Below, piece by piece: positions 5,771-45,728 of a DNA stretch of 64,000 nt. The notes under the pieces are model-generated. The model was not told where the DNA came from and did not search any database. It saw only the letters and a program-made list of their open reading frames with translations. The translations under genes were made by a program, and so were the position numbers. Where the stretch lies: NCBI RefSeq assembly GCF_004345665.1, contig NZ_SLWR01000003.1, positions 310,001-374,000 on the forward strand. Direction: 5' to 3'. Numbering within the stretch: the stretch's first letter is position 1; every line of letters begins with the position of its first letter. Source of the DNA: Kribbella antiqua. Lineage in GTDB: Bacteria > Actinomycetota > Actinomycetes > Propionibacteriales > Kribbellaceae.

Positions 5771-7003
5771 ATGATGGGGACTGGTAGCGGCGGCTTCTCG
5801 GCGGCGGGGATGGGCCGGGTGCGGGACGTGCTGGAGCGGCACGTTGAGGCTGGGAAGATTCCTGGGGTTGTTGCCTTGGTTGACCTGGGCGGGGAGACGC
5901 ACGTCGAGGCGATCGGGACGATGCAGTACGACGGTGGCGCGGCGATGAGCCGGGACACGATCTTCCGGATGGCCTCGACGTCCAAGCCGGTCTCGATTGC
6001 GGCGGCGATGGTGTTGCTCGACGAGTGCAGGCTGCGGCTGGATGACTCGGTCGAGCAGTGGCTGCCGGAACTCGCCAACCGCCAGGTGCTGAAGCGCATC
6101 GATGGCCCGCTGGACGACACCGAGCCGGCGCGGCGGCCGATCACCGTGCGGGACGTGCTGACCTCCACGTTCGGGCTCGGCATGGATATGACGGTGCTGG
6201 GTACGCCGATCATGGGCGCGATCTTCGAGCAGGGGCTGACGCCCAACCTGCCAGTGCCGATGCCCGAACCGGACGAGTGGATGCGCCGCCTCGGAACGCT
6301 CCCGTTGATGCACCAGCCCGGAGAGCGCTGGCAGTACCAGATCAGCAGCGACCTGGTCGGCGTACTCGTCGCCAGGGTCACGGGCCAGTCGTTCGAGTCG
6401 TTCCTGCGGGAACGCATCTTCGAGCCGCTGGGCATGAAGGACACCGGCTTCCACGTGCCCGAGGACCAGGTCGACCGGATGCCGACCCTCTACGCCCCCG
6501 ACCCGGCGACCGGAGAGTTCCTGGTGTGGGACGAGGCCAAGGGCGGCCGGTGGAGCAGCCCTCCACCGTTCCAGGGCGGCGGTGGCGGGTTGGTCTCCAC
6601 GGCCGACGACTACCACGCGTACTTCCGAATGCTGCTGAACGGCGGAATGCACGGCAACGAGCGGATCCTGTCCCGGCCCGCCGTCGAGCTGATGACCACC
6701 AACCGCCTCACACCGGAGCAGACCGCCGCTCGGACCGCCCTCGCCCGCGACGCCGTCCACGTGTCGTTCGGCCAAGGACAGCACGGCGGTTGGGGCTTCG
6801 GTATGGCGGTACGCACGTACCGCGGTGACTACGCGCCCATCGGCCAGTTCGGCTGGGACGGCGGCAGCGGCACCTCGACGTACGCCGACCCCACCAACCA
6901 GCTCACCGGCATCCTCCTCACCCAGGTCGGCGCCTCCGCCCCCTACTCAATCCACCTCATGCACGACTTCTGGACCACCCTCTACCAGGCCGTCGACAAC
7001 TAA
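5771..7003 (+). CDS. Serine hydrolase, class C beta-lactamase / EstB-like family
   Basis: About 410 residues with the penicillin-binding fold. The SxxK motif is STSK (nucleophile near residue 69), a Tyr at about 188 in WQYQISSD is the likely second motif, and GWDGGSGTS near the C-terminus replaces the KTG/HxG motif. There is no signal peptide, so a cytoplasmic esterase or peptidase is more likely than a secreted beta-lactamase. GAGGAG at 5761-5766 supports ATG 5771 or the adjacent ATG 5774; a GTG at 5759 is in frame but precedes that site. The gene is monocistronic, ends in a hairpin, and is framed by the two 43-nt repeats. Confidence 0.87.
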   Translation: MMGTGSGGFSAAGMGRVRDVLERHVEAGKIPGVVALVDLGGETHVEAIGTMQYDGGAAMSRDTIFRMASTSKPVSIAAAMVLLDECRLRLDDSVEQWLPELANRQVLKRIDGPLDDTEPARRPITVRDVLTSTFGLGMDMTVLGTPIMGAIFEQGLTPNLPVPMPEPDEWMRRLGTLPLMHQPGERWQYQISSDLVGVLVARVTGQSFESFLRERIFEPLGMKDTGFHVPEDQVDRMPTLYAPDPATGEFLVWDEAKGGRWSSPPPFQGGGGGLVSTADDYHAYFRMLLNGGMHGNERILSRPAVELMTTNRLTPEQTAARTALARDAVHVSFGQGQHGGWGFGMAVRTYRGDYAPIGQFGWDGGSGTSTYADPTNQLTGILLTQVGASAPYSIHLMHDFWTTLYQAVDN

Positions 7004-7017
7004 CCCCGCACCAGGCA

Positions 7018-7051
7018 GGCCGCCCGAGCCCCTCGGGCGGCCCAAGCCTTT
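7018..7051 (+). terminator. Hairpin after the serine hydrolase
   Basis: Perfect 11-bp GC-rich stem (7018-7028 and 7032-7042, GGCCGCCCGAG and its complement) with a 3-nt loop, 14 nt after the stop. Only a short T tract follows (CTTT at 7048-7051), so it may be a GC-rich actinobacterial terminator. Confidence 0.75.
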
Positions 7052-7090
7052 CCGGAACAAAGTTTGCGCTCCGTGGCAGTAAAGTTCCGG
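7048..7090 (-). repeat. 43-nt inverted repeat, right copy
   Basis: Partner of 5544-5586 in opposite orientation. It starts directly after the terminator stem, with CTTTCCGGAAC, and ends AGTTCCGG. Its own ends CCGGAAC/GTTCCGG are exact 7-bp inverted repeats, which suggests a protein-binding or mobile small element. Confidence 0.75.
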
Positions 7091-7115
7091 CAACCGCCGG
7101 AGCGCGCGGGGAGGT

Positions 7116-7988
7116 CTAGCTGCCGAGGGTTAGGCCTATTGCCAGGCCGAGGGCGTAGAGGAGTTCGGTTTGGCCGGTGGCTTTGAGGACTGGGATGAGG
7201 GCGGGGCCTACGGCGTCGCTGAGGACTACGCGGGTGGACTTGATCGCCAGGGGGACGGCGATGAAGGCGAGGAGGGTCCAGGGGGTGGCGATGGCGGAGA
7301 TGGCGGCGAGGATGAAGGCTAGGGCGATCAGGGCGGCGTAGAGCTGCCTCGACCGGGCAGCGCCCAGTACGACGGCTAGCGTGCGCTTCCCACTCACCGT
7401 GTCGGTGGGGATGTCGCGGAGGTTGTTGGCGACCAGTAGGGCGCAGGCGATGGAGCCGATGGAGACTGCGCCGGCGACGGCGGTCCAGTTCAGCTCCGAC
7501 GCCTGGACGTAGGTGGTGCCGAGTACGGCGACCAGGCCGAAGAACAGGAAGACGCTGACCTCACCCAGCGCGCGGTAGCCGTACGGGCGCTTGCCGCCTG
7601 TGTAGAACCACGCCCCGACGAGTGACGCCGCTCCTACGACCAGCAGCCACCAGTTGGAGGTCGCGCAGAGGATCACCCCGAGCACGGCGCCCACACCGAA
7701 GCAGGTAAAGGCTGCGGTCTTCACCTGTCCCGGAGTGGCGACCTTGGAGCCGACCAGACGCAGTGGGCCGACCCGGTTCTCGTCCGTACCGCGGATGCCG
7801 TCGCTGTAGTCGTTGGCGTAGTTGACCCCGATCTGCAGGGCCAGTGCGACGCCCAGGGCGAGCAGCGCCTTCCACCAGACGAAGCCGTCCAGGTACGCGG
7901 CCGCGCCGGTTCCGACGAGGACAGGGGAGATCGCGGCGGGCAGCGTGCGTGGGCGCGCGCCTTCGATCCACTGGGCAGGGGTGGCCAT
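7116..7988 (-). CDS. menA: 1,4-dihydroxy-2-naphthoate polyprenyltransferase MenA
   Basis: 290-residue UbiA-superfamily membrane enzyme that attaches the polyprenyl chain to dihydroxynaphthoate, the membrane step of menaquinone synthesis. The first aspartate motif NDYSD is at residues 59-63 (NYANDYSDG) and the second is in NNLRDIPTD. About eight helices are visible. The ATG at 7988 (MATPAQWIEGARPRTLPA) is the usual MenA N-terminus; the open extension beyond it overlaps menE. It is divergent from menE with 63 nt between starts, so both probably share one promoter region. Confidence 0.95.
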   Translation of the reverse strand: MATPAQWIEGARPRTLPAAISPVLVGTGAAAYLDGFVWWKALLALGVALALQIGVNYANDYSDGIRGTDENRVGPLRLVGSKVATPGQVKTAAFTCFGVGAVLGVILCATSNWWLLVVGAASLVGAWFYTGGKRPYGYRALGEVSVFLFFGLVAVLGTTYVQASELNWTAVAGAVSIGSIACALLVANNLRDIPTDTVSGKRTLAVVLGAARSRQLYAALIALAFILAAISAIATPWTLLAFIAVPLAIKSTRVVLSDAVGPALIPVLKATGQTELLYALGLAIGLTLGS

Positions 7989-8051
7989 GACCGTCGATTG
8001 TGTCAGCCACCCGGCAGGGGCCCGCAGCGAGGGCCGTACGCTCGGAGTGAC

Positions 8052-9143
8052 ATGTCTACCTTGCGCCTGGTCCCTGGTACGCCGGATGCCGTGCTGTCCG
8101 CGCTCACCGCCGTACTGGATGGCAGTGGTACGCCGTTCGCGCCGGTGCCGACTGATCAGGCAGCGGCGGCCCGGGTGAAGCAGGCGGCTGCGCCCGACCA
8201 GCCGCTGGAAGACGACTGTGCTGTAGTGCTGACCACATCCGGGTCGTCGGGCGAGCCAAAGGGCGTACTGCTGTCGCGGGAGGCGCTGCTCGCGTCTGCG
8301 AAAGCCACCCACGACCGGCTGGGCGGACCGGGCCAATGGCTGCTTCCAATGAAGCCGTACTACGTGGGTGGGCTGCAGATCCTCACACGGTCAGTGCTGG
8401 CCGGTCTGGAGCCTGTGATCCTCCAAGAGAGCTTCACCGAAGCGGCTGCCTCCATGACGGGAGTACGCCGCTACACCGCCATGGTGCCGACCCAACTCGC
8501 TCGCTACCTCGAGACGGACCTCGACGCACTGCGCTCGTTCGACGCCATCGTCATCGGTGGCGCCGCCACGCCGGCACCGTTGAAGGAGCGCGCGGCCGCA
8601 GCGGGGGTCACCGCGATCCCGGCGTACGGGATGACAGAGACCGGCAGTGGCTGCGTGTACGCCGGCGAGCCACTCGACGGTACGTCGATCGCGCTCGACG
8701 ACGGGCGGATCCTGATCAAGGGCACCACGCTGTTCTCCGGCTACCGGCTGCGGCCGGAGCTGACGGCGGAGGTGCTGCAGGACGGCTGGTTCCGGACGCA
8801 GGACCGGGGACACCTAACAGGCGGCCGGCTTGAGGTAGTCGGCCGGGTCGACGACGTGGTCATCTCCGGCGGGGTGAATGTCACGCTGCCGTCCGTACAG
8901 TCGCGACTGCTGGAGCATCCGCGAGTCAAGGACGCTGTGGTGCTCGGAGTGCCGGACGAGGAGTGGGGCACGCGAGTGGTCGCCTTTGTCGTGGGGGAGC
9001 CGGGGCGCGACGAGCTGCGCGACTTCGTGGCGGAGGCGCTGCCGCGGACCTGGGCACCGCGCGACGTGGTGCGGCTCGACGCGCTGCCGATGCTTGCCTC
9101 GGGCAAGATCGACCGGCAGCGGTTGCTGGAGGGCGTGCGGTGA
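8052..9143 (+). CDS. menE: o-Succinylbenzoate-CoA ligase MenE
   Basis: 363-residue AMP-forming ligase of the ANL superfamily that activates o-succinylbenzoate with CoA. The P-loop is TTSGSSGEPKG, followed by AYGMTETG, the hinge region GRVDDVVISGG and the C-terminal catalytic lysine in ASGKIDR. It is shorter than typical ligases of about 500 residues because the N-terminal region is reduced, which is usual for actinobacterial MenE. ATG 8052 is preceded by GGAGTGAC. It overlaps menC by 4 nt, so translation is probably coupled. Confidence 0.93.
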   Translation: MSTLRLVPGTPDAVLSALTAVLDGSGTPFAPVPTDQAAAARVKQAAAPDQPLEDDCAVVLTTSGSSGEPKGVLLSREALLASAKATHDRLGGPGQWLLPMKPYYVGGLQILTRSVLAGLEPVILQESFTEAAASMTGVRRYTAMVPTQLARYLETDLDALRSFDAIVIGGAATPAPLKERAAAAGVTAIPAYGMTETGSGCVYAGEPLDGTSIALDDGRILIKGTTLFSGYRLRPELTAEVLQDGWFRTQDRGHLTGGRLEVVGRVDDVVISGGVNVTLPSVQSRLLEHPRVKDAVVLGVPDEEWGTRVVAFVVGEPGRDELRDFVAEALPRTWAPRDVVRLDALPMLASGKIDRQRLLEGVR

Positions 9144-10075
9144 TCACCTACTCCATCGGCTTGAAGAACAAGTTCCGCGGGATCACAGTGCGCGAGGGCA
9201 TGCTGTTCGAGGGTCCTGCGGGGTGGGCCGAGTGGAGCCCGTTCCTGGACTACGACGACGCCACCTGTGTCGCCTGGCTCCGGGCCGCGCAGGAGGCGGC
9301 TGTCGACGGCTGGCCGGCGCCGGTGCGGGACGTCGTACCGGTGAACTGCACTGTGCCGGCGGTGGACCCCCTCACGGCGGCGGAGATTGTACGGCGTTCT
9401 GGCTGCAGCACGGCCAAGGTAAAGGTGGCTGAGCGCGGCCAGACGCTAAACGATGACCTAGCCCGAGTGGAGGCCGTGCGGGACGCAATCGGGGCGTCGG
9501 GGCGGGTGCGCATCGACGCCAACGGTGGCTGGTCGGTGGACGAGGCCGTCCGATCGCTGAAGCAGCTGGACAGATTCGACCTGGAGTACGTCGAGCAGCC
9601 ATGTGCTGCCGTGGAGGACCTGGCCGCTGTACGTCGACGTACAGAAGTACCGGTGGCGGCAGATGAGTCGATACGCCGGGCTGAGGACCCCTTGCGGGTG
9701 AAGGAGCTCGAGGCCGCGGACATCGCCGTACTGAAGGTGCAGCCCATTGGCGGCGTACGGGCGTGCTTGGACATCGCTGAGCAGCTCGGACTGCCGGTAG
9801 TGGTGTCTTCGGCGCTGGAGACCTCTATAGGGATCGCTGCTGGGGTTGCGCTTGCTGCTGCGTTGCCGGAGCTGCCTTACGCGTGTGGGCTCGCGACGGT
9901 GTCGATGTTTACGCAGGAGGTCGTTGCGGAGCCGTTGCTGCCCGTGGACGGCGTACTGCCCGTGAAGCGCGTGCAGCCGGACCCTGCGCTGTTGGAAGCG
10001 TGCCGTGCGGATGCGGCCAGGAGTGCTGTGTGGGAAGAGCGGATGGCCCGAGTGCTGAAGGAGAGTGCGGGATGA
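9140..10075 (+). CDS. menC: o-Succinylbenzoate synthase MenC
   Basis: 311-residue enolase-superfamily enzyme that dehydrates SHCHC to o-succinylbenzoate. The catalytic KxK is at residues 93-95. The metal ligands are Asp126 (DANGG), Glu152 (EQP) and Asp175 (ADES), and the second lysine is Lys199 (LKVQP). The GTG at 9140 overlaps the menE stop (GTGA), and its own stop overlaps menD (ATGA). This gives a tightly coupled menE-menC-menD operon. Confidence 0.94.
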   Translation: MITYSIGLKNKFRGITVREGMLFEGPAGWAEWSPFLDYDDATCVAWLRAAQEAAVDGWPAPVRDVVPVNCTVPAVDPLTAAEIVRRSGCSTAKVKVAERGQTLNDDLARVEAVRDAIGASGRVRIDANGGWSVDEAVRSLKQLDRFDLEYVEQPCAAVEDLAAVRRRTEVPVAADESIRRAEDPLRVKELEAADIAVLKVQPIGGVRACLDIAEQLGLPVVVSSALETSIGIAAGVALAAALPELPYACGLATVSMFTQEVVAEPLLPVDGVLPVKRVQPDPALLEACRADAARSAVWEERMARVLKESAG

Positions 10076-11712
10076 ACCCGTCGACGGCGTTCGCCACTGT
10101 GGTGGTCGACGAGCTGATCCGCTGCGGCGTCCGGGAGGCCGTGGTGGCGCCCGGCTCGCGCAGTGCGCCGCTGGCCTTGGCACTGGCTGCTGCGGACCGT
10201 GAAGGACGACTGCGGCTGCACGTGCGGATCGACGAGCGTACGGCGGGGTTCCTGGCGATCGGGCTGATCCGAGGGACTGGACTGCCCGTGCCGGTCGTGA
10301 CGACGTCCGGCACCGCAGTCGCGAACCTGCACCCGGCCGTACTGGAGGCCTCGCACAGTGGGCTGCCGTTGATCGTGCTGAGCGCGGACCGGCCGCCGGC
10401 CTTGCGGGGGAGCGGGGCCAACCAGACGACGGACCAGCTGAAGGTGTTCGGGTCTGCAGTGCGCCAGTTCCACGAGATGGGCACGCCGGTGCGCGAGGTC
10501 GGCCAGGTGGCGTACTGGCGCTCACAGGTCGCACGGGCCGTGGCCAACGCAGTAGGCGCCCGGTCAGCCGATCCGGGACCGGTGCACCTCAACTGCCCGT
10601 TGGCCGAGCCATTGGTGCCTACTGATGGACCGGAGTGGCCGGAGCCGCTATCCGGTCGCAGTACTGGGCCATGGACTGCTGTGCACGCGGCAGCCGGGCA
10701 GCCGTCGGCCGTCCAGCCTGGGCCGAAGACTGTCGTCGTCGCGGGGGATGGTGCGTCGCAGGCCGCGCGTTTGGCCGCAGAGGCCGGCCAGTGGCCGTTG
10801 TTCGCCGAGCCGTCGAGCCGGGCGCGGACCGGACCGGCGGTCGTCTCGGCGTACCGGTTGTTGCTTCAGGCAAGCTCTCTGGCCGGCGAGATCGAACGGG
10901 TGCTGGTGTTCGGGCATCCGACGTTGTCGCGGCCAATCGCCAAACTGCTGGCGCGGCCCGACGTCGAGGTGATCGTGGTGTCACCGACCGGTCTTTGGCC
11001 GGATGCCGCACGCCGGGCGTCGGCGGTGGTGACCGGGCTCGAGGTCTCGGCCGCCGACACCACCGACTGGCTCGAACGCTGGCAGCACGCCGACCAACTG
11101 GCCCGGCCCGCGATCGACAAGGTCCTCGCCGACGGCATGAACGGCCCGGGGATCGCCGCCATCGTCGGTGAAGCCGCCGGCGCCGACGGCATGCTCGTCG
11201 TCGCCTCCTCCAACCCGATCCGCGACCTCGACCTCGCCCCGGCCGTCCCCATCCGTACGGTCGCCAACCGCGGGCTGGCCGGCATCGACGGGACCATCTC
11301 CACCGCTGTCGGAGCTGCCCTGGCCAACGGCGGTCCGACGTACGCGCTGATCGGTGATCTCGCCTTCCTGCACGACAGCAACGGCCTCGTCATCGGGCCC
11401 GACGAGCCTCGCCCGGACCTGCGCATCGTCGTCGTCAACGACAACGGTGGCGGCATCTTCTCCACCCTCGAACAAGGCGACCCCACCCACGCCACCCACT
11501 TCGAGCGCATCTTCGGCACACCCCACCACACCAACCTCGAAGCCCTCTGCGCCGCCACCAGCACGCCGTACCACCTGGCCGAAACCCCCGAAGCCCTCCG
11601 TGCCGCCCTGACCCCCACCGTCGCCGGCATCGACGTCATCGAAGCCCGCATCTCACGCACCACTCACCGCCCACTGAACGAGGCGCTCGTGGCCGCTCTC
11701 ACCCAGCCGTAA
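10072..11712 (+). CDS. menD: SEPHCHC synthase MenD
   Basis: 546-residue thiamine-diphosphate enzyme that joins 2-oxoglutarate (after decarboxylation) to isochorismate, the first committed step of menaquinone synthesis. The N-terminal VVAPGSRSAPLALALA and IDERTAGFLAIG regions hold the isochorismate and catalytic glutamate sites. GDLAFLHDSNGL near residue 425 is the ThDP/Mg motif. ATG 10072 overlaps the menC stop. The 3' end overlaps the convergent mannosyltransferase gene by 14 nt. Confidence 0.95.
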   Translation: MNPSTAFATVVVDELIRCGVREAVVAPGSRSAPLALALAAADREGRLRLHVRIDERTAGFLAIGLIRGTGLPVPVVTTSGTAVANLHPAVLEASHSGLPLIVLSADRPPALRGSGANQTTDQLKVFGSAVRQFHEMGTPVREVGQVAYWRSQVARAVANAVGARSADPGPVHLNCPLAEPLVPTDGPEWPEPLSGRSTGPWTAVHAAAGQPSAVQPGPKTVVVAGDGASQAARLAAEAGQWPLFAEPSSRARTGPAVVSAYRLLLQASSLAGEIERVLVFGHPTLSRPIAKLLARPDVEVIVVSPTGLWPDAARRASAVVTGLEVSAADTTDWLERWQHADQLARPAIDKVLADGMNGPGIAAIVGEAAGADGMLVVASSNPIRDLDLAPAVPIRTVANRGLAGIDGTISTAVGAALANGGPTYALIGDLAFLHDSNGLVIGPDEPRPDLRIVVVNDNGGGIFSTLEQGDPTHATHFERIFGTPHHTNLEALCAATSTPYHLAETPEALRAALTPTVAGIDVIEARISRTTHRPLNEALVAALTQP

Positions 11713-13132
11713 CCCGAGCCGGGGCCTCAACAGCGTCGGTCACCCTCAACCGTCGCGCCGGATGCAGGGTGCGCAGGTGGTTGAGCAGCGGGGCGATAGT
11801 CGCGATCGCCAACGCTGTGGTGGTGAGGATGGGGATGGTGGCGCCACGGAGTGAGGAGTTGAGGGGCGCTGCGATGGTGAGGATGAGGCTGACTGCGGTG
11901 ATGGTGGTGGTGAGCTGGCGGCCGGGCCGTGCGACGGCCAGGAACGGCAGGCACCACAGGAAGTACCAGTCGTGCGCGCTGGGCCCTAGAAGGACGACGG
12001 CGAGCAGAGCGATGCCGACCGCTCGGGCTGCGTGGTGAATGGACGAGCGGAGGCTCAGTACGGCGATCAGCCCGACCGCGACGAGCATGCCGACCAGCCG
12101 GACCACCTGCAGCGCCTGCGAAGCGGCGTTGTCCTCGCCAAGCCACTCCAGTACGCCGGTAGCCGCCATACCGAGCAGGTTCGCGATAGAGAACGGTGAG
12201 CGGACCAGCCCTGGTACGTCGAGTGCGCCCATCCAGCCGGAGCCCACGCCGGTCAGCTCGCCGATGGTGACCAGCGTGAGTACGGAGACCGCTCCCGCGA
12301 TCGCAAGACTGGCAAAGCGCAGTGCACGCCCAGCCAACGGGCTCATCACCGCAGCGATGGCGATGACCACCAGACCACCGGGCAGCTTCACCGCAGCCGC
12401 AGCGCCCGCGACAACCGCCGCAGTACCCCAGCGACCCGTCAGTGCAAGGGCAAACGCGCTACAAGCCAGCCCCAGCATCAGTACGTCGTTGTGCGCCGCA
12501 CCGATGCCATGAGTGATCAACACCGGGTTGGCGACGACCAGCCAGCTGGCGAACACCGGATCGACCCGGCATGCCGTCGCAAGCCGCGGCACGGCCCAGG
12601 CGATCAGCACAATGCCCAGGACGGCGAGCAGCCGGTGCGCCAGCATCAGCAGGTAGGGGTCCATCGTCAGCCGCGCGACCAGACCGCCGTACGCGAGAGG
12701 CAGGGGTCCGTACGGCGCTGGGGTCGCCATCCACATCGGGTCGACCGCCTCGACGATGTGGCCCGACAGAACGCCGGGGCCTACGTCGTACGGGTTGAAG
12801 CCTTCGGCAACGAGCGCTCCCTGCGCGGCATAGCTCCAGGCATCGCGGCTGAATAGTGGCGGTATGAGGAGCAGAGGTGCGCTCCAGCACGCTGCCATGC
12901 GCAGCACTGGTGGTCGTAGTCCCGCTATGACCTGACGGCCCACGGACAGCCAGGCCCAGGCCATCAGCCCGAGTCCGGCGACCATGAACGTGAGCCCGAC
13001 CATGCGGCCTGGCAATGAGTCACGCAGCGGGAACGACGCCACCCATGAGGAGGGCGGGACCACCGAGGTCACCAGGCTCGCCAGGGCGACTACGACGGAG
13101 CCGACCACCCCACGGACGATCGGCGAGCGCAT
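11699..13132 (-). CDS. MptB-like polyprenol-phosphomannose-dependent mannosyltransferase
   Basis: 477-residue multi-pass membrane protein of the GT-C type with about 12 helices. The first large loop contains SRDAWSYAAQGALVAEGFNPYDVGP, which matches the signature of actinobacterial MptB-type alpha-1,6-mannosyltransferases that use polyprenyl-phosphomannose to extend lipoglycan mannan. The Asp in SRDAWSY is the likely catalytic residue. I infer a role in a lipomannan-like cell-envelope glycan. The polar C-terminal tail overlaps the end of menD on the other strand. Confidence 0.8.
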   Translation of the reverse strand: MRSPIVRGVVGSVVVALASLVTSVVPPSSWVASFPLRDSLPGRMVGLTFMVAGLGLMAWAWLSVGRQVIAGLRPPVLRMAACWSAPLLLIPPLFSRDAWSYAAQGALVAEGFNPYDVGPGVLSGHIVEAVDPMWMATPAPYGPLPLAYGGLVARLTMDPYLLMLAHRLLAVLGIVLIAWAVPRLATACRVDPVFASWLVVANPVLITHGIGAAHNDVLMLGLACSAFALALTGRWGTAAVVAGAAAAVKLPGGLVVIAIAAVMSPLAGRALRFASLAIAGAVSVLTLVTIGELTGVGSGWMGALDVPGLVRSPFSIANLLGMAATGVLEWLGEDNAASQALQVVRLVGMLVAVGLIAVLSLRSSIHHAARAVGIALLAVVLLGPSAHDWYFLWCLPFLAVARPGRQLTTTITAVSLILTIAAPLNSSLRGATIPILTTTALAIATIAPLLNHLRTLHPARRLRVTDAVEAPARVTAG

Positions 13133-15254: not shown

Positions 15255-15878
15255 TTAGTTGGTGGGTGGGTTCGGGATTTCGCCCCAGTGGGTGACCATG
15301 CCGGGGTAGGGCTGCCAGTCGGCGGGTTCGCCGGCGAAGGAGTAGGCGCCGTCGGTGACGCGCTGGTGGAAGGCACGGGTCCACTCGAGCTCGCCGGTGG
15401 CGCGGGCGTCGACGATCCGGAACATCTCGACGACGTGGTTCGGCGTCCCCGGGTCCTCCAGGACCTGCCGCTCCGCGAACGGCTCCGCCTTCTGCTGCTG
15501 CTCGAGTTTCACGATGCGCGCCTCGAGCGCGGCCAGCACCTCGTCCCGCCGCAGCGACCACAGGAAGCTCAGCGCGGCCTGCATCCGGTCCGGGTGGAAG
15601 CTGTCCACGTTCCACAGCAGTTCCCGCAGCAGCGTGAAGTACTCCGTCTCGCCGTCGGCCGTCAGCTTGTACGACGTACGCCCGGGCCTGTCGCCCTCCT
15701 CGAGCTCCTGCAGGTACCCGTGTTTGGCCAGCGTGCGCAGGCCGGTGTAGATCGAGCCCGGGTTGATGTTCGCCCACTGCTGCACGTCCCAGGTGAGCAG
15801 CTCGCGGCGCAGCTGATAGCCGTACGCCGGCTGGAAGATCCGCACGACCCCGAGCAGCAGCAACCGCGTGGTGGACAT
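15255..15878 (-). CDS. PadR family transcriptional regulator
   Basis: 207 residues. The N-terminal winged helix is typical of PadR (LGVVRIFQPAYGYQLRRELLTW...INPGSIYTGLRTLAKHGYL), followed by a helical C-terminal dimerisation domain with a long Glu/Gln-rich helix. It probably represses the downstream DrrAB-like exporter through the dyad at 14944. TACACT lies 6 nt before the ATG, so the transcript is probably leaderless. Confidence 0.88.
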   Translation of the reverse strand: MSTTRLLLLGVVRIFQPAYGYQLRRELLTWDVQQWANINPGSIYTGLRTLAKHGYLQELEEGDRPGRTSYKLTADGETEYFTLLRELLWNVDSFHPDRMQAALSFLWSLRRDEVLAALEARIVKLEQQQKAEPFAERQVLEDPGTPNHVVEMFRIVDARATGELEWTRAFHQRVTDGAYSFAGEPADWQPYPGMVTHWGEIPNPPTN

Positions 15879-15918
15879 GCTCGCAGTGTATGAGTCTGAC
15901 CAGAGGCCGGCACCTTCA

Positions 15919-16548
15919 TCAGGTCACCGATGCGGCCACAGAACTGGTGATCAGTGGGCGGGGTGGGTGCAGACGGACCATGAGCTCCAGGTCGACTGAG
16001 CGGTCCCTCTTGGCCAGTTGTACGTCGTCGAGGGACAGGGATGCCGTGACGACGCACTCGCCGCCGCGCAGCGCGGTCAGAGTGCCAGCTCTGACGATGG
16101 CCTGCAGTGCGGTCAGCTCGAAGACGATCTCGAGTTCGAACTTGAAGGAATGGATCCGCACCCCGTTGGCGACGAGGTCGACATGTGGTGAGTACGTCGA
16201 CCTGACGGTGTGCGCCGCGAGCGGAACGATCTCCTCGCTGCCACTGACGGCCAGAGTACGGCGCGCCGCGTCGGTGAGCTTCGCGTACTTCTGCCAGGCC
16301 GACAGCAGGACGTCGCCGAGATCCAGATTCAGCAGGCCGTCGGTGATGGTGCCGATCTCATGGTCGACGACCGCGATCGACGATGCCGACAGCCGGCGTA
16401 CCGAGCGCAGCGCGGTCCGGGTGCTGCCGAGCTCGTCGAGCGCGGCACCCAGGGCTTCGACCGTCTCGGCCGCGGAGCCGAACAGGAGCGCGTCGGCGCT
16501 CAACGGCGCCTGGACGATCGGATCGTCGATCAGAGTTGGAACGGTCAT
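15919..16548 (-). CDS. Conserved hypothetical protein, partner of the PASTA protein
   Basis: 209 residues with no signal peptide and no membrane helix, so probably cytoplasmic. I do not recognise a named domain. The N-terminal half is helical (SAAETVEALGAALDELGSTRT). The C-terminal half alternates polar and hydrophobic residues like a beta sandwich (FKFELEIVFELTALQAIVRA, GGECVVTASLSLDDVQLAKR). It begins 2 nt after the PASTA-protein stop, so the two are co-transcribed and probably act together. I recall similar uncharacterised actinobacterial proteins, but no function. Confidence 0.7.
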   Translation of the reverse strand: MTVPTLIDDPIVQAPLSADALLFGSAAETVEALGAALDELGSTRTALRSVRRLSASSIAVVDHEIGTITDGLLNLDLGDVLLSAWQKYAKLTDAARRTLAVSGSEEIVPLAAHTVRSTYSPHVDLVANGVRIHSFKFELEIVFELTALQAIVRAGTLTALRGGECVVTASLSLDDVQLAKRDRSVDLELMVRLHPPRPLITSSVAASVT

Positions 16549-16550
16549 GT

Positions 16551-18146
16551 TCAGACTTCCTCGAGGGTGTGCGTGCCGGCGTCGGCGTGCGGCTCAATCC
16601 GTACGACCGGCATCGCGGGCGATCGGTTCGATTCCGTGATCCTCGGACCGCGCAGCGCAGTCTGCCGTACGACGACCTTGACCTTGTTGCGAACAAAACT
16701 CTGGTCGAGCCGTAGTCGCACTACGCGATAGATGGCGGCGCCGACGCCCAGCAGCAGCGCCCCCAGCACAACCACGGCCGCCCACGCTGACGACGGCTGA
16801 TCGAACGTCACGGTGACCGTGGTTCCCACCGGGACGAGCGTGCCGGCCGCAGGCTGCTGGCTCACGATGTCGCGGTCGCTGGCCGAGCCGCCGTCGAACA
16901 CCAACCCCAGGTCGGACAAGGCCGTCCGAGCTCGATCCGCGCCGTGCCCGACAAGGTCCGGCACCTGGACCATCGGGAGTGCGACGAGAGTCACGGTCAC
17001 CACGCTGCGGGGTTTCACGAACGTGCCCGCTGCCGGTTTCTGACTTGCGACCGTACGATCGCCGGCCGGCTGACCGCCAAGCACCAAACCTGCACCCGTC
17101 AACGCTGGGCGAGCGACATTTACCGTGCGCCCGACCACGTTCGGAACCTGCACCAGCACCGGCGCAACCTTGTCTCGCTCGGTTGTCACGCTGACCGCGC
17201 TGCCAACGGGAACCTTGGTCCCGGGCTCGGGGAACTGGTCGCGGATCCGCTCTCCGTCGCCGTCCACCGGGCCCAGCACCAGCCCGCGGTCGCGGAGGAT
17301 TTCGGCGGCGGCCTCGGTAGTCCTCCTGATCACTCGCGGCACGACGACCAACCGCGTCGCCGAGCCGACCGTGATGTCGACTGCACTGTCGCGGCTCACC
17401 GTCTCGCCGGCCTTGGGATCCTGACTCCGTACGACGTCGCCACGCCCGGAAACCCGGCCGAGCCGAAGCTCCGCGGCAGCCAAGGCGGCAATGGCCTGGG
17501 CCCGCGTGAGCCGGACGATGTTCGGTACGACGGTCGGCCGCGGCAGGGTGCCCAGATGGATGTCGACCGCGCTGCCGGCCTCGGCCGTGGTCCCGACGCC
17601 CGGCTTCTGGCGCTGCACGGTCTCGCCATCGCCAGTGACCTGACCGAGCACCAGCCCTTCCCGGATCAGCTCTTCCCCGGCCTCATCGCGATGCATGCCG
17701 ATCAGATCCGGCACCGGAACCAACGTCCGGGTGACTTCGAACTCTTCGGTGTAGGCCACGTCCGGGATGTCCGTGCAGTGTGCCTCGACCGTGTACCTAG
17801 CAGGCTTCGCGTCCCCGGGAACCCTGAACGACGACATGATCGATCCGTTGGACCCAACCGTCGCGGTGGCAACCTCGGTGCCTGACCACAAGATCTGCGC
17901 CGTGTTGGCGACTGCTTGGCGGTTCAGCGCGTTCACCCGGACGACGGTCGGCGCGCACCGATCGAACCCGCCGCCAGTGACGACGACCTCGGTGCCCGGT
18001 GAACCGCTGAGCGGTTCGAGCGTCAGCGCCGCCGCGTCGTCGGTGACAGCGCGCGCGGATCCAGCACCTGCCAGCGCGAGTACGCCGGCCAACACGAGCG
18101 CGGCCCATCGCCAACGAAATCCACCCATACTGAAACGGACCCCCAC
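16551..18146 (-). CDS. Membrane-anchored protein with five PASTA domains and no kinase
   Basis: 531 residues. It has a signal peptide (WRWAALVLAGVLALAGAGSARA) and an Ig/IPT-like domain at about 38-140 (LEPLSGSPGTEVVVTGGGF). Five consecutive PASTA repeats follow, each opening with a VPxxxG/R motif (VPDLIGMHRDEA, VPNIVRLTRAQA, VPRVIRRTTEAA, VPNVVGRTVNVA, VPDLVGHGADRA). One helix near residue 465 precedes a basic cytoplasmic tail of about 55 residues. PASTA domains usually sense peptidoglycan fragments on PknB-type kinases or PBPs; here neither a kinase nor a transpeptidase is attached. Met7 is a possible alternative start. Confidence 0.85.
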   Translation of the reverse strand: MGVRFSMGGFRWRWAALVLAGVLALAGAGSARAVTDDAAALTLEPLSGSPGTEVVVTGGGFDRCAPTVVRVNALNRQAVANTAQILWSGTEVATATVGSNGSIMSSFRVPGDAKPARYTVEAHCTDIPDVAYTEEFEVTRTLVPVPDLIGMHRDEAGEELIREGLVLGQVTGDGETVQRQKPGVGTTAEAGSAVDIHLGTLPRPTVVPNIVRLTRAQAIAALAAAELRLGRVSGRGDVVRSQDPKAGETVSRDSAVDITVGSATRLVVVPRVIRRTTEAAAEILRDRGLVLGPVDGDGERIRDQFPEPGTKVPVGSAVSVTTERDKVAPVLVQVPNVVGRTVNVARPALTGAGLVLGGQPAGDRTVASQKPAAGTFVKPRSVVTVTLVALPMVQVPDLVGHGADRARTALSDLGLVFDGGSASDRDIVSQQPAAGTLVPVGTTVTVTFDQPSSAWAAVVVLGALLLGVGAAIYRVVRLRLDQSFVRNKVKVVVRQTALRGPRITESNRSPAMPVVRIEPHADAGTHTLEEV

Positions 18147-18241
18147 CGCCCGCGCGCTGATACCTGCTGCGGCGAAATTGCGGCGCCCGTGGGGTAAATC
18201 CGCGCGACGTGGTCACGGGTTCAGGCGTAATCTCCGGTGGC

Positions 18242-19072
18242 ATGGATGTGCGGGTGACGAGTGATGCGAAGGCGTTCGAGGCGAGCGTTTTTCCTTTTCT
18301 GCAACAGGATCCGGTGCTGCACACGATCATCCTGAGCAATGTGCATGAGCGCGCCGTCGGCAGCTGTCGCGCGGAAGCCGAGCCGTCGTACTTCGTCTCC
18401 GTCCACGACGAGAGCGGTGCCCTTATCGGCGCGGCGATGCGTACGCCGAACCGGCCGGTGTACCTCGGCGCTCTCCGGACGGACCTCGCCGACGTGGTCG
18501 CGACGGCGTACCTCGAGCTCGTTCCGGAGCCGGGCGGGGTCGCCGGCGTCAGTGAAGCCACTCGGTGCTTCGCCGAAGCCTGGGCCGCGGCGCGGGGAGT
18601 CACCGTGACCGAGGGGCGAGCCTCCCGACTGCACCGGCTTGAGGACCTGACTCTGCTGGCCGCCGCCGACGGCCACGCCCGGCTGATGAAGCCGTCGGAG
18701 GTCGAGCTGGTTGCGAATTGGTCGGCCGACGGGTTCGCGGAGCTCAATGGCCCCGACCTCGACTGGGCCGAGAGTCACCTGCGCGAGGAGCGGATGTGGA
18801 TCTGGGAGGCCGGCGGCGAACCGGTCAGCATGGTCGGGTACCACCTGCCGATCTTCGGTGTGTGCCGGGTGGGTCCGGTCTACACCCCTCCCGAGCACCG
18901 TCGGCACGGCTACGCCGGCGCCCTGACCGCACACGTCTCCGGTGAGATCCTTGCGCAAGGCAACCAAGCCTGCCTGTTCACCGACCTGGCGAACCCGACG
19001 TCCAACAAGATCTACTACCAGGCCGGCTACCGCCCCGTCGCCGACTTCGTCGACCGGGTCTTCACCACCTGA
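18242..19072 (+). CDS. GNAT family N-acetyltransferase
   Basis: 276 residues. The N-terminal half is divergent and the C-terminal half carries the GNAT core: VGPVYTPPEHRRHGYAGALTAHVS is the acetyl-CoA loop and NPTSNKIYYQAGYRPV the closing motif. ATG 18242 (MDVRVTSDAKAFEASVFPFL) is chosen because the upstream extension is short and lacks a ribosome site. The acceptor is unknown. It is divergent from the PASTA operon and convergent with the hydrolase gene 18 nt away. Confidence 0.85.
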   Translation: MDVRVTSDAKAFEASVFPFLQQDPVLHTIILSNVHERAVGSCRAEAEPSYFVSVHDESGALIGAAMRTPNRPVYLGALRTDLADVVATAYLELVPEPGGVAGVSEATRCFAEAWAAARGVTVTEGRASRLHRLEDLTLLAAADGHARLMKPSEVELVANWSADGFAELNGPDLDWAESHLREERMWIWEAGGEPVSMVGYHLPIFGVCRVGPVYTPPEHRRHGYAGALTAHVSGEILAQGNQACLFTDLANPTSNKIYYQAGYRPVADFVDRVFTT

Positions 19073-41430: not shown

Positions 41431-43554
41431 GTGAGTGAGCGCACCTTGGCCGAGGGCCGGTATGTGTTGAGTGAGCCGCCCATCGGCGTTGGTGGGATGG
41501 GGACGGTCTGGAAGGCGTTCGACAACGCCCTGCATCGCGAGGTCGCGGTGAAGGAGTTGCGGATTCCGGAGGGACTGAGCCCGGAGGAGCGCGACAAGCT
41601 GCAGGAGCGGGCGCGGCGGGAGGCGCGTGCCGCCGCCGGGCTCGACCACCCGGGCATCGTCACGATCCACGACGTACTGGATGAGGACGGCGCGCCGTGG
41701 ATCGTGATGCGTCTGCTCCCTGGCCGGTCGCTTGATCAGGCGATCCGCACCAACGGGCCGTTGAGCCCGCGCCGCGCGGCCGAGCTCGGCGCGCGTCTAG
41801 TCGACGCGCTTGCGGCCGCCCATGCCAAAGGTGTGCTGCATCGGGATGTGAAGCCGCAGAACGTGATGCAGGGCTCCGACGGCAACTGGATGCTGACCGA
41901 CTTCGGCATCGCCTCGGTCGCCGGCGCCACCCGCACCCTGACCGGCACCGGCATCGTGACCGGCACCCTCGGCTACATCGCACCGGAGCGGCTTTCCAGT
42001 GGCGATCACGGACCGCCGGCAGATCTGTGGGCGCTCGGTGCGACTCTGTACTACGCCGTCGAGGGACAGCACGCGTACGACCACGACGACCTGCCCGCGA
42101 TGATCGCGGCCGTCCTGACCCGCGATCCTGCACCACCGAAGCATGCCGGTCCGCTCGCGCCGGTCATCGCCGGCTTGATGGAACGAGACCCTGCGCAGCG
42201 CCTGGATGCAGAGACGGCCAAGCCTCAATTGGTTGCCATTGCCGACGGTTATCCGACCTTCGAGAATCCGACCGTCCAGCTCGCCGACGCGGACAAGCCG
42301 ACCGAGAAGTTCGGCGGATCGACCAAGGTGCTGCACGACGGAAGCACCCTGGTCGACCGGGGCTCCGAGCCGGGATCTCCGGTCCCGAGCCAGCCGGTCG
42401 TGCGTGCGCTCACCTGGCAAGTAGCGGCGCTGAACAGTGCGGCCGGGGCGCTGGTAGCTCTCATCGGCTACGGCCTCACCGACGGGATGCCGGTGGGACT
42501 CTTCGCCGGACTGATGGTGGCGTTCGCGCTCGGCGGCGGGCTCGGTGCCTTGCTGGCCCCTCGCCTTGCACAGTGGATCGGCGTCCCCGCGGCGCTGACC
42601 GGGAGTGCGTTGCTGATGGGCGAGTCGCTCGGCGCGATCGGCCTCCTGGCGGGGACGAGTTCGCCGGTCGCTGTCATTCTCGCCGGGGTCGCGCTGGTGA
42701 TGTTCGCGGCCTGGCTCCGGTTGTCCCGTTCCCTGCGGCAGCGCGTCGTACCGGCGGCGAGGCTCGACCGGGCGACCACCGCCTATCGGGCTTCGGGTTT
42801 TGCCGGACTCCTGCTCGGCGGTGCTGTTGCGGGCGTGTACTTCTGGCTCAGAGCGACGGATGCGGTCGGCGGCAACTACGTCATCATGACCCTCGCCGGC
42901 GCCGGGATCGTCGTGGTTGTGGCCGCGCTGCTGGGCATACCTGCCGTACGTGCCGCGTCGATCTCCGGCAGGCCGAAGCGGTGGGCGCCGGCCACCACTG
43001 CAGCGGTCGCACTCGTCCTCCCGGTCGTCGTCGGCGTCCAGGCCACCGTGCACTACGTCGACAGCCTGGACGACTTCACATCCGCGCCGGATATCTGCTC
43101 GGTGGACGCGCTGTCGCAGGACAGCGTCGCGAAGTTCATCACCGACCCGCCGGCGGTGGACGCGTACTCCAACGCCGACCACGCCAGATGCCACTGGACG
43201 CTGATTGGTGACGACGGCGACAACAGCGCCGAGCTCAGGATCATCGTCAACACGTACGCCAACTCGCGCGCGGCCGGACATCTTCAGTACGGGCGGGACA
43301 TGGCGGAACGGGATGGGAAGACCATCGTCCCCCTGCAACTCGGCGACGAAGCAATCCGACGCTCGTACGATGGCATGATCACCTCTAAGGACAACACTCT
43401 CGGCATCGCCGTCGAGGTCCGGATCGACAACCTCGTACTGGAGGTGGACTTCGAGCGGGGCGAAGCTCTTGGTGGCGAACCCGATGCGGACCAAGTTGAG
43501 GCGCTGGCCGCCGAGCTGGTGCGTGAAATCGAGAGCCAGAAGCCGCGCCGCTAG
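41431..43554 (+). CDS. Ser/Thr protein kinase with seven predicted TM helices
   Basis: 707 residues from GTG 41431. The kinase domain spans about 10-270, with glycine loop IGVGGMG, Lys41 (VAVKEL), the catalytic loop HRDVKPQN (Asp139), DFG at 157-159 and an activation loop rich in Thr. A linker follows, then about seven hydrophobic helices between 325 and 540. The last 160 residues are predicted outside, with Cys556 and Cys587, and look like a small sensor domain. There is no PASTA repeat, unlike PknB. TAGGGT lies 7 nt before the GTG, which suggests a leaderless start; an in-frame codon 36 nt upstream is less likely. Confidence 0.88.
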   Translation: MSERTLAEGRYVLSEPPIGVGGMGTVWKAFDNALHREVAVKELRIPEGLSPEERDKLQERARREARAAAGLDHPGIVTIHDVLDEDGAPWIVMRLLPGRSLDQAIRTNGPLSPRRAAELGARLVDALAAAHAKGVLHRDVKPQNVMQGSDGNWMLTDFGIASVAGATRTLTGTGIVTGTLGYIAPERLSSGDHGPPADLWALGATLYYAVEGQHAYDHDDLPAMIAAVLTRDPAPPKHAGPLAPVIAGLMERDPAQRLDAETAKPQLVAIADGYPTFENPTVQLADADKPTEKFGGSTKVLHDGSTLVDRGSEPGSPVPSQPVVRALTWQVAALNSAAGALVALIGYGLTDGMPVGLFAGLMVAFALGGGLGALLAPRLAQWIGVPAALTGSALLMGESLGAIGLLAGTSSPVAVILAGVALVMFAAWLRLSRSLRQRVVPAARLDRATTAYRASGFAGLLLGGAVAGVYFWLRATDAVGGNYVIMTLAGAGIVVVVAALLGIPAVRAASISGRPKRWAPATTAAVALVLPVVVGVQATVHYVDSLDDFTSAPDICSVDALSQDSVAKFITDPPAVDAYSNADHARCHWTLIGDDGDNSAELRIIVNTYANSRAAGHLQYGRDMAERDGKTIVPLQLGDEAIRRSYDGMITSKDNTLGIAVEVRIDNLVLEVDFERGEALGGEPDADQVEALAAELVREIESQKPRR

Positions 43555-43796: not shown

Positions 43797-45728
43797 TCAG
43801 GCGGAACGACGGGGGATGTGTGGTGTGTCCGTCCACGGGGTCGGTTGGGCGGAGGTGTCGTCTGGCGGCCACGCTGTTGGTTCGTTTGGTGAGGGGAAGG
43901 GAATGGGCGTGACGGGTCCTCCCGGCGGGTCTTCACCTGCGGGCTGGGCGGTGTGGGGGATGTAGCTGGGCGGTTTGTATTTGCCGAGAGGTGTCGGCGC
44001 GGGATTCGTCCAGCCCGGGCGGGTGACGTGGACGATGCCCGCGGTGATGTGGATGTGCCAGTGGCCGGAGTGGAGGTCGAGGTGGTGGCGCTTGCAGAGC
44101 AGGACGAGGTTGTCGACGCGCGTTTCGCCGCCGTCGATCCAGTGGACGAGGTGGTGCGCTTCGCATTGGATCGGGGGTGCGCCGCAGACGACGCAACCGC
44201 GATCCCGGGCGTTGAGGGCCAGCCGCATGGGTGCGGTGACGAGGCGCTTGGTGGTCCCGACGTCCAGTGGCTGGGACTTCGAGCCGAGGACCACCGGAAT
44301 CACCTGCGCATCACAGGCAAGGCGGCGTACGGCGGCGGCTGACAAGTCTTCACCGAAGACGGTGCTACCGAGCGCGTCGGCGGTCGCGGTCTTGAGAGCG
44401 TGGTAGTCGATGGTGATGGTCAGATGCGCCTTCGGCCCGTGCCCGGGGATGTAGGAGCCGCTGGGGCCGGTGGCGGTGGCGGTGGAGCCGACGGCGGCGG
44501 TGCCGGAGCTGGTGGGGTTGGGATCGGTGGCAGTGGTGCGGTCGGCGTCGGTGGCAGTGGTGGGGTTGGGGTCGAGAGTGTCACGGCTACTGGTGCCGTG
44601 GGAGCTTGTGGCGGTGCTCGGATTGGAGCGAGGGGACCGGCTTGTCGCGGACGTGCTGGTCTGGTGGTCGTCGTCCGGGGGCCAGGCGGCAGCACGGAGG
44701 TTGGTGTCTTGCGTCGAGCCATTGGGACGTTGCTCGTCGTTCCGCGGAGTGGGGGTGGTGCTGCGGTCGCCCTGGGCCGAAGTGGTGAGGGTTACGGCGG
44801 CGGCGGTGTTGAGGAGGGTGGTGAGGGCGTCGGCTTGGCGTTTGTCGCGGGGGCGGGGGTCCAGGGCGCCGTCGATGGTTTTGTGGGGTTTGGCGTTGGC
44901 GTGGATCAACGTGCGGAAGAGCTCGGCGTTGTCGTTGGCGAGGTAGCCGCGGAACTTCACGCCGTTGTCCGCGGGCTGCATGGTCAGGGACTCCCGGTTG
45001 TAGGCGCGGTTCTCGTCAGGTTCGGGGCCGTCGGTGTCGAGGATCTTGCGCATCCGGGCGCCGGCGTCGCGGAGTTGGCCGGGGGTGAAGGTGCGGGCGA
45101 GGATGATCAGCTGTTCTTCGGCGGCTCGGAGGTCTTCGGCGGGGACGGTGTTGGGGACCTTTTCGAGAGCGGACACGATGGCGTTGGCTTGTGCGGGGTT
45201 GATCGGCCGCACCGGATCGGAGCCGGATTCGTTGCCATCAGCACCAGAGTCGTCGGCACCCGGGTCGTCGGCACCCGGGTCGTCGGTACCCGGGACGTCG
45301 GCACGAGAGTCGTCGGCATCAGAGTCGTCGGCATCAGAGTCATCGGCATCAGAGTCATCGGCACCGGGGCCGGCGCTGGAATGATCGGCGCCGGAATGAT
45401 CGGTGTCGGCGGCTGCGTGGGCCGTGGTGTCCGGGAATGGGGCCGCGGGGCCGGGGAGGGCGGCGGAGACGGCGTCGTACTTGGGGAGGGCGTTGGCCAG
45501 GCGCAGGTCGCGACGGGCTACCGCGGCGTCGATGAGGTAGCGCTCGGACAGGAAGCGGGCGGTGTCGCCGGCGCCGATCTCCTTGGCGTATCCGGAGGCG
45601 TCGAGGTCGGCGATCAGCTGCAGGTAGTAGGTCGTCAGCCCACCGATCACGGCGACGGTCGCGTCGAGGCGCGACAGCTTCTCGCTGTCGTTCATCGACC
45701 AGGCGGGCCGTTCGCCGAGGATCTCCAT
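43797..45728 (-). CDS. DUF222 / HNH endonuclease-domain protein (13E12 type)
   Basis: 643 residues. The N-terminal DUF222 helical region is split by an acidic low-complexity insert (residues 123-163). A second low-complexity Ser/Thr/Asn-rich linker follows at about 315-420. The C-terminal HNH nuclease site reads CVVCGAPPIQCEAHHLVHW and then VDNLVLLCKRHH. The Cys pair, His-His and final His are intact, so it could be active. Such genes are multicopy in actinobacteria (13E12 family), often near mobile DNA, but no transposase or terminal repeats are visible here. Cellular role unknown. Confidence 0.9.
   Translation of the reverse strand: MEILGERPAWSMNDSEKLSRLDATVAVIGGLTTYYLQLIADLDASGYAKEIGAGDTARFLSERYLIDAAVARRDLRLANALPKYDAVSAALPGPAAPFPDTTAHAAADTDHSGADHSSAGPGADDSDADDSDADDSDADDSRADVPGTDDPGADDPGADDSGADGNESGSDPVRPINPAQANAIVSALEKVPNTVPAEDLRAAEEQLIILARTFTPGQLRDAGARMRKILDTDGPEPDENRAYNRESLTMQPADNGVKFRGYLANDNAELFRTLIHANAKPHKTIDGALDPRPRDKRQADALTTLLNTAAAVTLTTSAQGDRSTTPTPRNDEQRPNGSTQDTNLRAAAWPPDDDHQTSTSATSRSPRSNPSTATSSHGTSSRDTLDPNPTTATDADRTTATDPNPTSSGTAAVGSTATATGPSGSYIPGHGPKAHLTITIDYHALKTATADALGSTVFGEDLSAAAVRRLACDAQVIPVVLGSKSQPLDVGTTKRLVTAPMRLALNARDRGCVVCGAPPIQCEAHHLVHWIDGGETRVDNLVLLCKRHHLDLHSGHWHIHITAGIVHVTRPGWTNPAPTPLGKYKPPSYIPHTAQPAGEDPPGGPVTPIPFPSPNEPTAWPPDDTSAQPTPWTDTPHIPRRSA
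45241..45360 (-). repeat. Eight 15-nt tandem repeats inside the HNH gene
   Basis: Eight consecutive 15-base units, for example GCATCAGAGTCGTCG and GCACCCGGGTCGTCG, with small variations and no length change. On the coding strand they encode five-residue units of the DDSDA/DDPGA type, making an acidic flexible spacer. Identical neighbouring units (45256 and 45271; 45331 and 45346) indicate recent slippage or unequal exchange. Confidence 0.9.

Follow-up and report, generated by a model that had tools for sequence, protein, structure and literature searches.

A 64,000-nucleotide stretch of the Kribbella antiqua genome, referred to below as the window (G000:C3:310001-374000 in our numbering of genomes and contigs, from a genome of 8.1 Mb), contains two adjacent minus-strand genes that are the subject of this analysis. 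The upstream gene encodes a single-pass membrane protein with five PASTA repeats and no kinase domain (the receptor), and the downstream gene encodes a 209-residue cytoplasmic protein (the partner). These genes form a real two-gene unit that recurs in other actinobacteria, in which the receptor tail and the partner are common and the ectodomain differs. An earlier note on this DNA had suggested that the pair is a kinase-independent muropeptide sensor or scaffold that signals through the partner. The features of the pair are as follows.

16551..18146, minus strand: receptor gene, kinase-less PASTA membrane protein (open reading frame (ORF), five Pfam PASTA matches, hydropathy)
18048..18128, minus strand: predicted signal peptide MGGFRWRWAALVLAGVLALAGAGSARA (by eye and hydropathy)
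17733..18026, minus strand: possible immunoglobulin-like (Ig-like), GxPGS-type segment, limits approximate (weak, NCBIfam NF058592)
16800..17720, minus strand: five PASTA repeats (five matches over the Pfam cut-off, G000:C3:326800-327720)
16722..16790, minus strand: transmembrane helix, approximate (KD19 maximum 2.38)
16554..16730, minus strand: cytoplasmic tail with conserved elements (FVRNKVKVVV ... VVRIEPHADAGTHTLEEV; tail profile match, alignments)
15919..16548, minus strand: partner gene, 209-residue cytoplasmic alpha/beta protein of no known family (ORF, profile scans, AlphaFold2)

Architecture of the receptor and its partner

The receptor ORF spans 531 codons from a GTG at 18146, with an alternative ATG start at 18128; our codon-usage gene caller placed the start at 18095, and both ORFs of the pair score as coding. 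Pfam detects PASTA in five stretches (E 2.1e-50, 168.9 bits, cut-off 23.2), which are followed by a single strong transmembrane segment from residue ~453 (KD19 up to 2.38) and a tail of 59 residues containing 11 Lys and Arg and 6 Asp and Glu. The tail matches the tail profile described below with E 1.2e-22, the window tail being itself one row of that profile. The partner ORF starts 2 nucleotides (nt) past the receptor ORF on the same strand. To this extent the architecture given in the earlier note, with five PASTA repeats, one helix, a basic tail and a closely spaced 209-residue ORF, is borne out, but its proposal of a signal anchor is not. The N-terminal hydrophobic stretch (residues 16-34, KD19 1.78) ends in ARA-V and reads by eye as a cleavable signal peptide, pointing to a type I topology. 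The Ig-like domain that the note also placed here stands as a possible segment, as the NCBIfam GxPGS model NF058592 matches it below its cut-off of 45 (E 0.065, 13.3 bits) and Pfam returns nothing for residues 1-149.

The absence of a kinase was likewise confirmed. A Pfam scan of the receptor finds neither a kinase nor a transpeptidase family, and the NCBIfam models for PASTA kinases and penicillin-binding proteins score far under their cut-offs, matching with their PASTA ends. The best stretch of the kinase model NF033483 covers profile positions 362-561 of 563 (109.3 bits, cut-off 450), and that of the penicillin-binding protein model TIGR02214 covers positions 579-635 of 636 (61.7 bits, cut-off 688). 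The PADLOC models of PD-T4-6, which we take to be a kinase family, also match the receptor across the PASTA repeats. No anti-sigma domain is matched in receptor or partner by Pfam or NCBIfam. Elsewhere in the genome, two long ORFs on contigs C1 and C7 carry four and three PASTA repeats, and for both the best match in the window is the gene at 41464-43554, which looks kinase-like by eye; a further three ORFs have one PASTA match each. Since usual-type PASTA proteins are also present in this genome, the window receptor is an addition to them. The Ser/Thr kinase-like gene at 41464-43554 lies ~23 kb from the pair, past what looks like a nuo gene cluster.

The partner contains no transmembrane-like segment (hydropathy maximum 1.31). 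It has no match in Pfam or NCBIfam up to E 1, none in PADLOC up to E 0.01 and no sequence relative in the PDB under E 0.38; a PHROG family of unknown function is matched weakly (E 0.0017). A family with an unrelated known role, which the earlier note had named as the outcome that would speak against its reading, was thus not found in the Pfam, NCBIfam and PADLOC scans. AlphaFold2 models built from 11 and 24 sequences have a mean pLDDT of 79.1 and 86.8, respectively; the latter shows helices at the N-terminus and a meander of six strands, long ones among them. Neither model gave a convincing structural relative in a Foldseek search of the PDB (best E 0.08 and 0.036, TM score 0.19 and 0.15) or in VIA-align, where a designed protein (Z 4.2) and gasdermin B (Z 4.3) scored best and Z 7-8 is the level that the tool calls typical of proteins without a clear match. 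The best BFVD match was also unconvincing (E 2.8e-3, TM score 0.18), and one uncharacterised phage protein in that database fits over 81 columns at 2.9 A (E 0.12). The absence of a structural match is no proof of a new fold. Kinship with the EspG chaperones (PF14011) was considered and rejected, as only two of 24 partner members match (19.4 and 18.4 bits, cut-off 27); these two are close relatives of each other, and the match covers their helical N-terminal part.

No column is invariant in the alignment of 24 partner sequences, and those at least 90% conserved are W85, A94, A95, L110, H113 and L193. This pattern does not resemble a catalytic set and suggests that the partner is a binding protein, with no sign of its being an enzyme.

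Pairing, common tail and differing ectodomains

The partner is found in ten of 38 Kribbella genomes (own included) at 12 loci, two of which are contigs of a single genome, G011. When the same genomes are searched with a receptor-tail profile, 12 strong matches emerge (E 2.4e-24 to 6.6e-10), and every one of them lies immediately upstream of a different partner gene among the 12; the profile rows came from eight of these loci, leaving four independent of it. The remaining 28 genomes have neither a partner nor a strong tail match. Both G011 receptors were missed by our gene caller and recovered by tblastn. Nine weaker tail matches occur in the genus (E 1.2e-5 to 0.0092); the seven inspected (L128-L133, L137) are other genes with no receptor, and those of G014:C7 and G017 lie outside the inspected set. 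A phylogenetic profile of the pair had been proposed in the earlier note as a check, and on this evidence the two genes are present or absent together in the genus. In G011 the same pair neighbourhood stands on two contigs, L024 (G011:C1) and L030 (G011:C5), perhaps reflecting a duplication or an assembly artefact.

The pairing extends beyond the genus. A receptor, or its transmembrane helix and tail, lies directly upstream of the partner in 32 of 33 assessable loci, including 20 of 21 outside Kribbella. The 32 comprise the 12 Kribbella loci together with L097, L098, L099, L101-L106, L108, L115, L116, L138, L140-L144, L154 and L155, with only the helix, tail and part of the ectodomain visible in L098, L115 and L143. 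Two loci (L096, L107) are not assessable because their contigs end upstream, and L109 (G436) and L117 (G1038), short weak matches in which no intact partner ORF was seen, were excluded from the counts. Among 27 measured pairs the genes overlap by 4 nt in 13, by 14 nt in seven and by 7 nt in one, and are separated by 2-102 nt in six, gene starts outside the window being those of our gene caller, which at first missed several receptors, or of ORF reading. In L024 the receptor ends at ~10207 (tblastn) and the partner starts at 10217. Rare adjacency of the homologues in other genomes, the other outcome that the earlier note had named as speaking against its reading, is therefore not what is observed, and the claim that a receptor-like protein is tied to the downstream partner is upheld.

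The ectodomains of these receptors differ. PASTA scores over cut-off in scanned receptors of the window, L022 and L026 in Kribbella and of L101, L103 and L106; BLAST or inspection by eye points to PASTA also in the remaining Kribbella receptors, in L104 and L105 and in the incomplete L115. The ectodomain of L116 instead carries HYDIN / choice-of-anchor D Ig-like repeats over cut-off, and that of L108 is Cys-rich. Receptors of L097, L099, L102, the loci of one genus of family f22 and Embleya appear Ig-like by eye and contain no PASTA; L102 alone among them has a GxPGS match (21.5 bits, under the cut-off of 45). Alignments identify in the tail a common WVRxHV-like juxtamembrane element and a C-terminal VRLxPxxDPGxQxxxE element. 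Kribbella pairs fall into two lineages, A and B, each with its own tail type, the B-type tails having no WVR element. PASTA is therefore one of several ectodomains on the same tail and partner chassis, placing the constant function in the tail and the partner. The description of the pair as a muropeptide sensor is not supported in the form given.

Profile searches in both directions connect the tails across genera. A profile of four Kribbella A-type tails ranks the proteins of L097, L098, L099 and L116 first to fourth among 531 proteins (E 2e-7, 0.0063, 0.019 and 0.025), all four being encoded directly upstream of partners. In the reverse search, the four A-type Kribbella receptors rank first to fourth among 527 proteins (1.3e-6 to 0.0019), the window receptor being fourth. 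Distances between tails and between partners are correlated over 30 pairs (Mantel r 0.89, with 0 of 2000 permutations as high), although linked genes that are inherited together also give a high Mantel r, and co-divergence is no proof of contact. For both proteins, the Kribbella A pairs lie nearer to those of Embleya and the f22 genus than to the B pairs (identity 0.346 vs 0.267 for the partner and 0.266 vs 0.222 for the tail). The partner tree joins Kribbella A to three sequences from other families (97/94) and places B elsewhere (100/100), with a caution about long branches near the latter.

Partner relatives are sparsely distributed, and the genome counts given here are lower bounds, as only some candidates per genome were scored. 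At the level of the order they occur in 10 of 391 genomes (one genus of 40), at that of the class in 15 of 394 at E<=0.01 (11 of 138 genera), within one genus of family f22 in seven of 199 genomes, and across the phylum in five of 396, the last including two new strong relatives (G1018 and G1026, labelled as the same phylum) and two weak ones. A plasmid search added two relatives on Embleya plasmids, unannotated at that place, and both records hold the pair. A GTDB scan with the partner returned eight named loci, all from Kribbella. The pair is therefore present in at least a dozen actinobacterial genera, counting the 11 of 138 sampled and the two genomes outside the class.

Comparison of the window with related genomes also shows the two genes present and absent together at one site. 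The features of this site are as follows.

15891..18194, ends approximate, no strand: stretch with the two genes, missing from this site in relatives (end of the left flank GCAGTGTA, resumption of the right flank TAAATCCG)
15255..15878, minus strand: flanking PadR-like gene (by eye), left of the empty site, outside the system
18242..19072, plus strand: flanking GNAT-like gene (by eye), right of the empty site, outside the system

The PadR-like gene was found in nine of 15 genomes searched. In all eight bearing it other than that of the window, the site is empty and the PadR-like and GNAT-like start codons lie ~55-57 bp apart (spacing set by alignment in L151 and L153, where our caller mis-set or missed the start). 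In the window, a stretch of ~2.3 kb containing the pair separates the two genes. Insertion appears a simpler reading than eight losses, with no search for repeats or transposition marks having been made. The empty site in relatives thus places the PadR-like gene, along with the transporter-like genes that follow it, outside the system.

The sigma, R152, TPR-CHAT and subtilase module of relatives

In seven of the 12 Kribbella loci (L021, L022, L025-L028, L031), the pair adjoins genes for a sigma factor, a protein of ~152 residues (R152), a TPR-CHAT protein and a subtilase. Domain scans were made of L022 and, for the sigma factor and R152, of L026. The CHAT (113.3 bits, cut-off 24), subtilase (74.9, cut-off 21.8) and sigma region 2 (43.1, cut-off 24) domains of L022 are well over their cut-offs; TPR_12 is just under (29.6, cut-off 30.1), sigma region 4 is also under cut-off and R152 matches no domain. 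The His and Cys motifs of CHAT proteases were found in four of four proteins checked, as were the His and Ser motifs of subtilases. The gene order is pair-sigma-R152 in lineage B (L025-L028, L031) and sigma-R152-pair in lineage A (L021, L022); in L026, for example, the partner and the sigma factor are 77 nt apart, and in L022 R152 and the receptor are 88 nt apart. The lineage A pairs adjoin two different TPR-CHAT paralogues that are 51% identical; two deep partner lineages adjoin TPR-CHAT modules in three arrangements. With one or two modules per 8-9 Mb genome, the link between pair and module is, by a rough reckoning, far from chance. Because genomes of one genus share ancestry, the independent link events may number about three, not seven.

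A literature search of titles and abstract openings, in which subscription journals are thinly covered, gave no account of the pair or of the CHAT/S8/sigma module in actinobacteria. The genome of the window has its own sigma / R152 / TPR-CHAT / subtilase module at positions 7325-12521 of L045 (G000:C2:348000-367900). It is preceded by a 143-residue gene (6737-7168), look-alikes of which stand near the sigma factor or R152 in L031, L047, L048, L050 and L051. A TPR-CHAT / subtilase neighbourhood, mostly with the sigma factor and R152, recurs in many actinobacterial genera (L067-L086).

A receptor-adaptor reading and its rivals

The pair fits no family tested, and in kind we place it with the single-pass envelope sensors. 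With the PASTA Ser/Thr kinases (PknB, PrkC, Stk1) it shares the outside PASTA repeats, the single transmembrane helix and a likely ligand class, muropeptide binding having been reported for PknB (PMC3145798). In contrast to these kinases, the window receptor lacks a kinase domain, carries its PASTA repeats N-terminal to the transmembrane helix, has a 59-residue tail and is accompanied by a separate cytosolic partner, and in its homologues PASTA is replaced by other modules; the resemblance is confined to the outside part. The PASTA penicillin-binding proteins (SpoVD, PBP2x) are similar in placing PASTA outside the membrane and differ in that no transpeptidase is matched in the receptor. PASTA domains behind transmembrane segments, in proteins that are neither kinases nor penicillin-binding proteins, have already been reported in iSTAND conflict systems (PMC7159879), where they are described as the effector part of vWA-MoxR/iSTAND systems; we noticed no neighbours of that type around the pairs, with no search aimed at them.

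Pairs of extracytoplasmic function (ECF) sigma factors and transmembrane anti-sigma factors resemble the present pair in having a single-pass sensor with a short cytoplasmic part, as well as in the sigma factor that adjoins it in seven Kribbella loci. They differ in that the pair has no recognised anti-sigma domain, a constant separate partner and, at most loci, no sigma gene. The module of the relatives has in common with the type III-E CRISPR protease system (Craspase/CASP: TPR-CHAT Csx29, Csx30, CASP-sigma) that a TPR-CHAT protein is encoded together with a sigma factor and another, small protein; unlike that system the Kribbella module includes a subtilase, and PMC10028731, as far as its accessible text extends, names no such receptor. 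The EACC2 conflict neighbourhoods are reported to combine a caspase domain, an ECF sigma factor and a TPR protein, their core staying constant as other parts vary (PMC8195603). The word PASTA does not occur in the main text of that paper, and the proteases beside the pair are of the CHAT and S8 types.

We regard it as probable that the two genes encode a transmembrane receptor with exchangeable ectodomains and its adaptor, the cytosolic partner, which docks on the receptor tail. The data show the pairing, the common tail, the matched divergence of tail and partner, the difference in ectodomains, the joint presence or absence at the window site and the co-localisation with the module in seven of 12 Kribbella loci; we infer the physical contact, the ligand, the direction in which a signal travels and its target. 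As a family, PASTA repeats bind peptidoglycan or its fragments. The type I receptor would thus expose an exchangeable envelope-binding module, here the five PASTA repeats, and the two conserved, strand-like elements of its short tail may dock the partner. Engagement or clustering outside would alter how the tail holds the partner, which would then relay the signal through contact with a further molecule. For several Kribbella relatives, the neighbouring sigma / R152 / TPR-CHAT protease / subtilase module would be the likely receiver, and the output at linked loci would be transcription or proteolysis triggered by an envelope signal. Such a sigma / TPR-CHAT output is plausible for the linked Kribbella loci only, with precedents in CASP-sigma (PMC10028731) and in the caspase / ECF sigma / TPR neighbourhoods (PMC8195603). 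More ambitiously, and only tentatively, the pair could represent an undescribed signalling class, a modular receptor with free exchange of ectodomains, a non-enzymatic docking tail and a dedicated new-fold adaptor, coupled in some actinomycetes with a sigma factor as well as with proteases resembling caspases and subtilisins, as a switch for envelope-damage transcription or cell death; we doubt that all of this will hold.

Several observations weigh against the receptor-adaptor reading or against its extension to the module, in addition to the caution on co-divergence given above. Tail sequences diverge in L101, L102, L106 and L108, and the first tail control is strong for the top match alone (2e-7), the next three lying at 0.006-0.025. 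One locus, L100, has no receptor on its 3.6-kb contig. Five of the 12 Kribbella loci, including that of the window, have no module in the flanks inspected, and none was found in inspected flanks of pairs outside Kribbella, which extended at most 10 kb (1.5 kb for L138-L144). In the window strain the module (L045) lies on another contig, G000:C2, and has no pair beside it; any link would therefore act in trans. TPR-CHAT proteins lacking the pair are common, occurring in 31 of 38 genomes of the genus and 63 of 296 of the class (own included). None of 20 TPR-CHAT loci inspected outside the genus contains the pair; a subtilase-like neighbour lies within five genes in all 20 and a sigma-like one in 14. 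Finally, a TPR-CHAT relative (E<=1e-60) is present in only five of 16 partner-bearing genomes outside Kribbella, compared with the 63 of 296 in the class sample, for which fewer candidates per genome were scored; on this comparison the module was dropped as a general output.

The pair might carry no signal at all, the receptor serving as a wall anchor or positioner and the partner supporting its stability, insertion or localisation from the cytosol, as a scaffold or chaperone. Exchangeable PASTA, Ig-like or Cys-rich ectodomains would suit adhesion or wall tethering, the partner lacks an invariant catalytic set, and localisation is reported to be a major function of the PknB PASTA domains (PMC3145798). 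However, the sigma factor and R152 beside the pair in seven of 12 Kribbella loci suit regulation better, and we consider anchoring rather unlikely. A regulatory role of another kind would follow if the pair were a membrane anti-sigma or sigma-docking device, in which the partner, alone or with R152, retains the neighbouring sigma factor, its release coming with receptor engagement or with cleavage by the TPR-CHAT protease. The co-directional orders pair-sigma-R152 (L025-L028, L031) and sigma-R152-pair (L021, L022) and the nearby TPR-CHAT protein with its His and Cys motifs favour such a device, as does the type III-E CRISPR precedent, where the TPR-CHAT protein Csx29 cuts Csx30, a sigma-factor inhibitor (PMC10028731). 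It is nevertheless unlikely, given that the module is missing from five of 12 Kribbella flanks inspected and from the flanks inspected outside the genus, many of them short, and that the partner matches no anti-sigma family.

Two further explanations have little in their favour. The long antiparallel strands 130-153 and 156-173 of the partner model, the weak structural matches, in which pore-form gasdermins, perforin and MAC proteins appear repeatedly, and the caspase-like (CHAT) protease near the pair in seven loci of relatives would agree with a gasdermin-like membrane effector with pore-forming hairpins, restrained by the receptor and freed by envelope damage or neighbouring proteases. All of the matches are weak, however (Foldseek best E 0.036 with TM score 0.15, VIA-align best Z 4.3), with unrelated proteins in the other rows; the partner has no family match in Pfam, NCBIfam or PADLOC, and most loci have no protease module, making a pore very unlikely. 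That two unrelated genes are adjacent by chance can hardly be entertained, as it is contradicted by the adjacency in 32 of 33 loci, the same places within the genus, the overlaps and the joint presence and absence at the insertion site.

The usual explanations of bacterial envelope sensing are kinases, two-component systems and anti-sigma factors. If the receptor-adaptor reading is correct, a constant tail and partner with swappable outside modules would be a different solution, with a logic near that of animal receptor-adaptor signalling. The pair would then offer a testable entry to kinase-free PASTA function and perhaps, for Kribbella, to the trigger of the sigma / TPR-CHAT / subtilase modules.

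Two other genes near pairs were observed. Two genes downstream of its pair, L021 carries a relative (11208-12926, 48% identity) of the 643-residue window gene at 43797-45728, with a shorter N-terminal copy nearby. In L029 (G018), a 682-residue protein with a GNAT-like N-terminus (by eye) is encoded at 7392-9440, downstream of a B-type pair not linked to the module.

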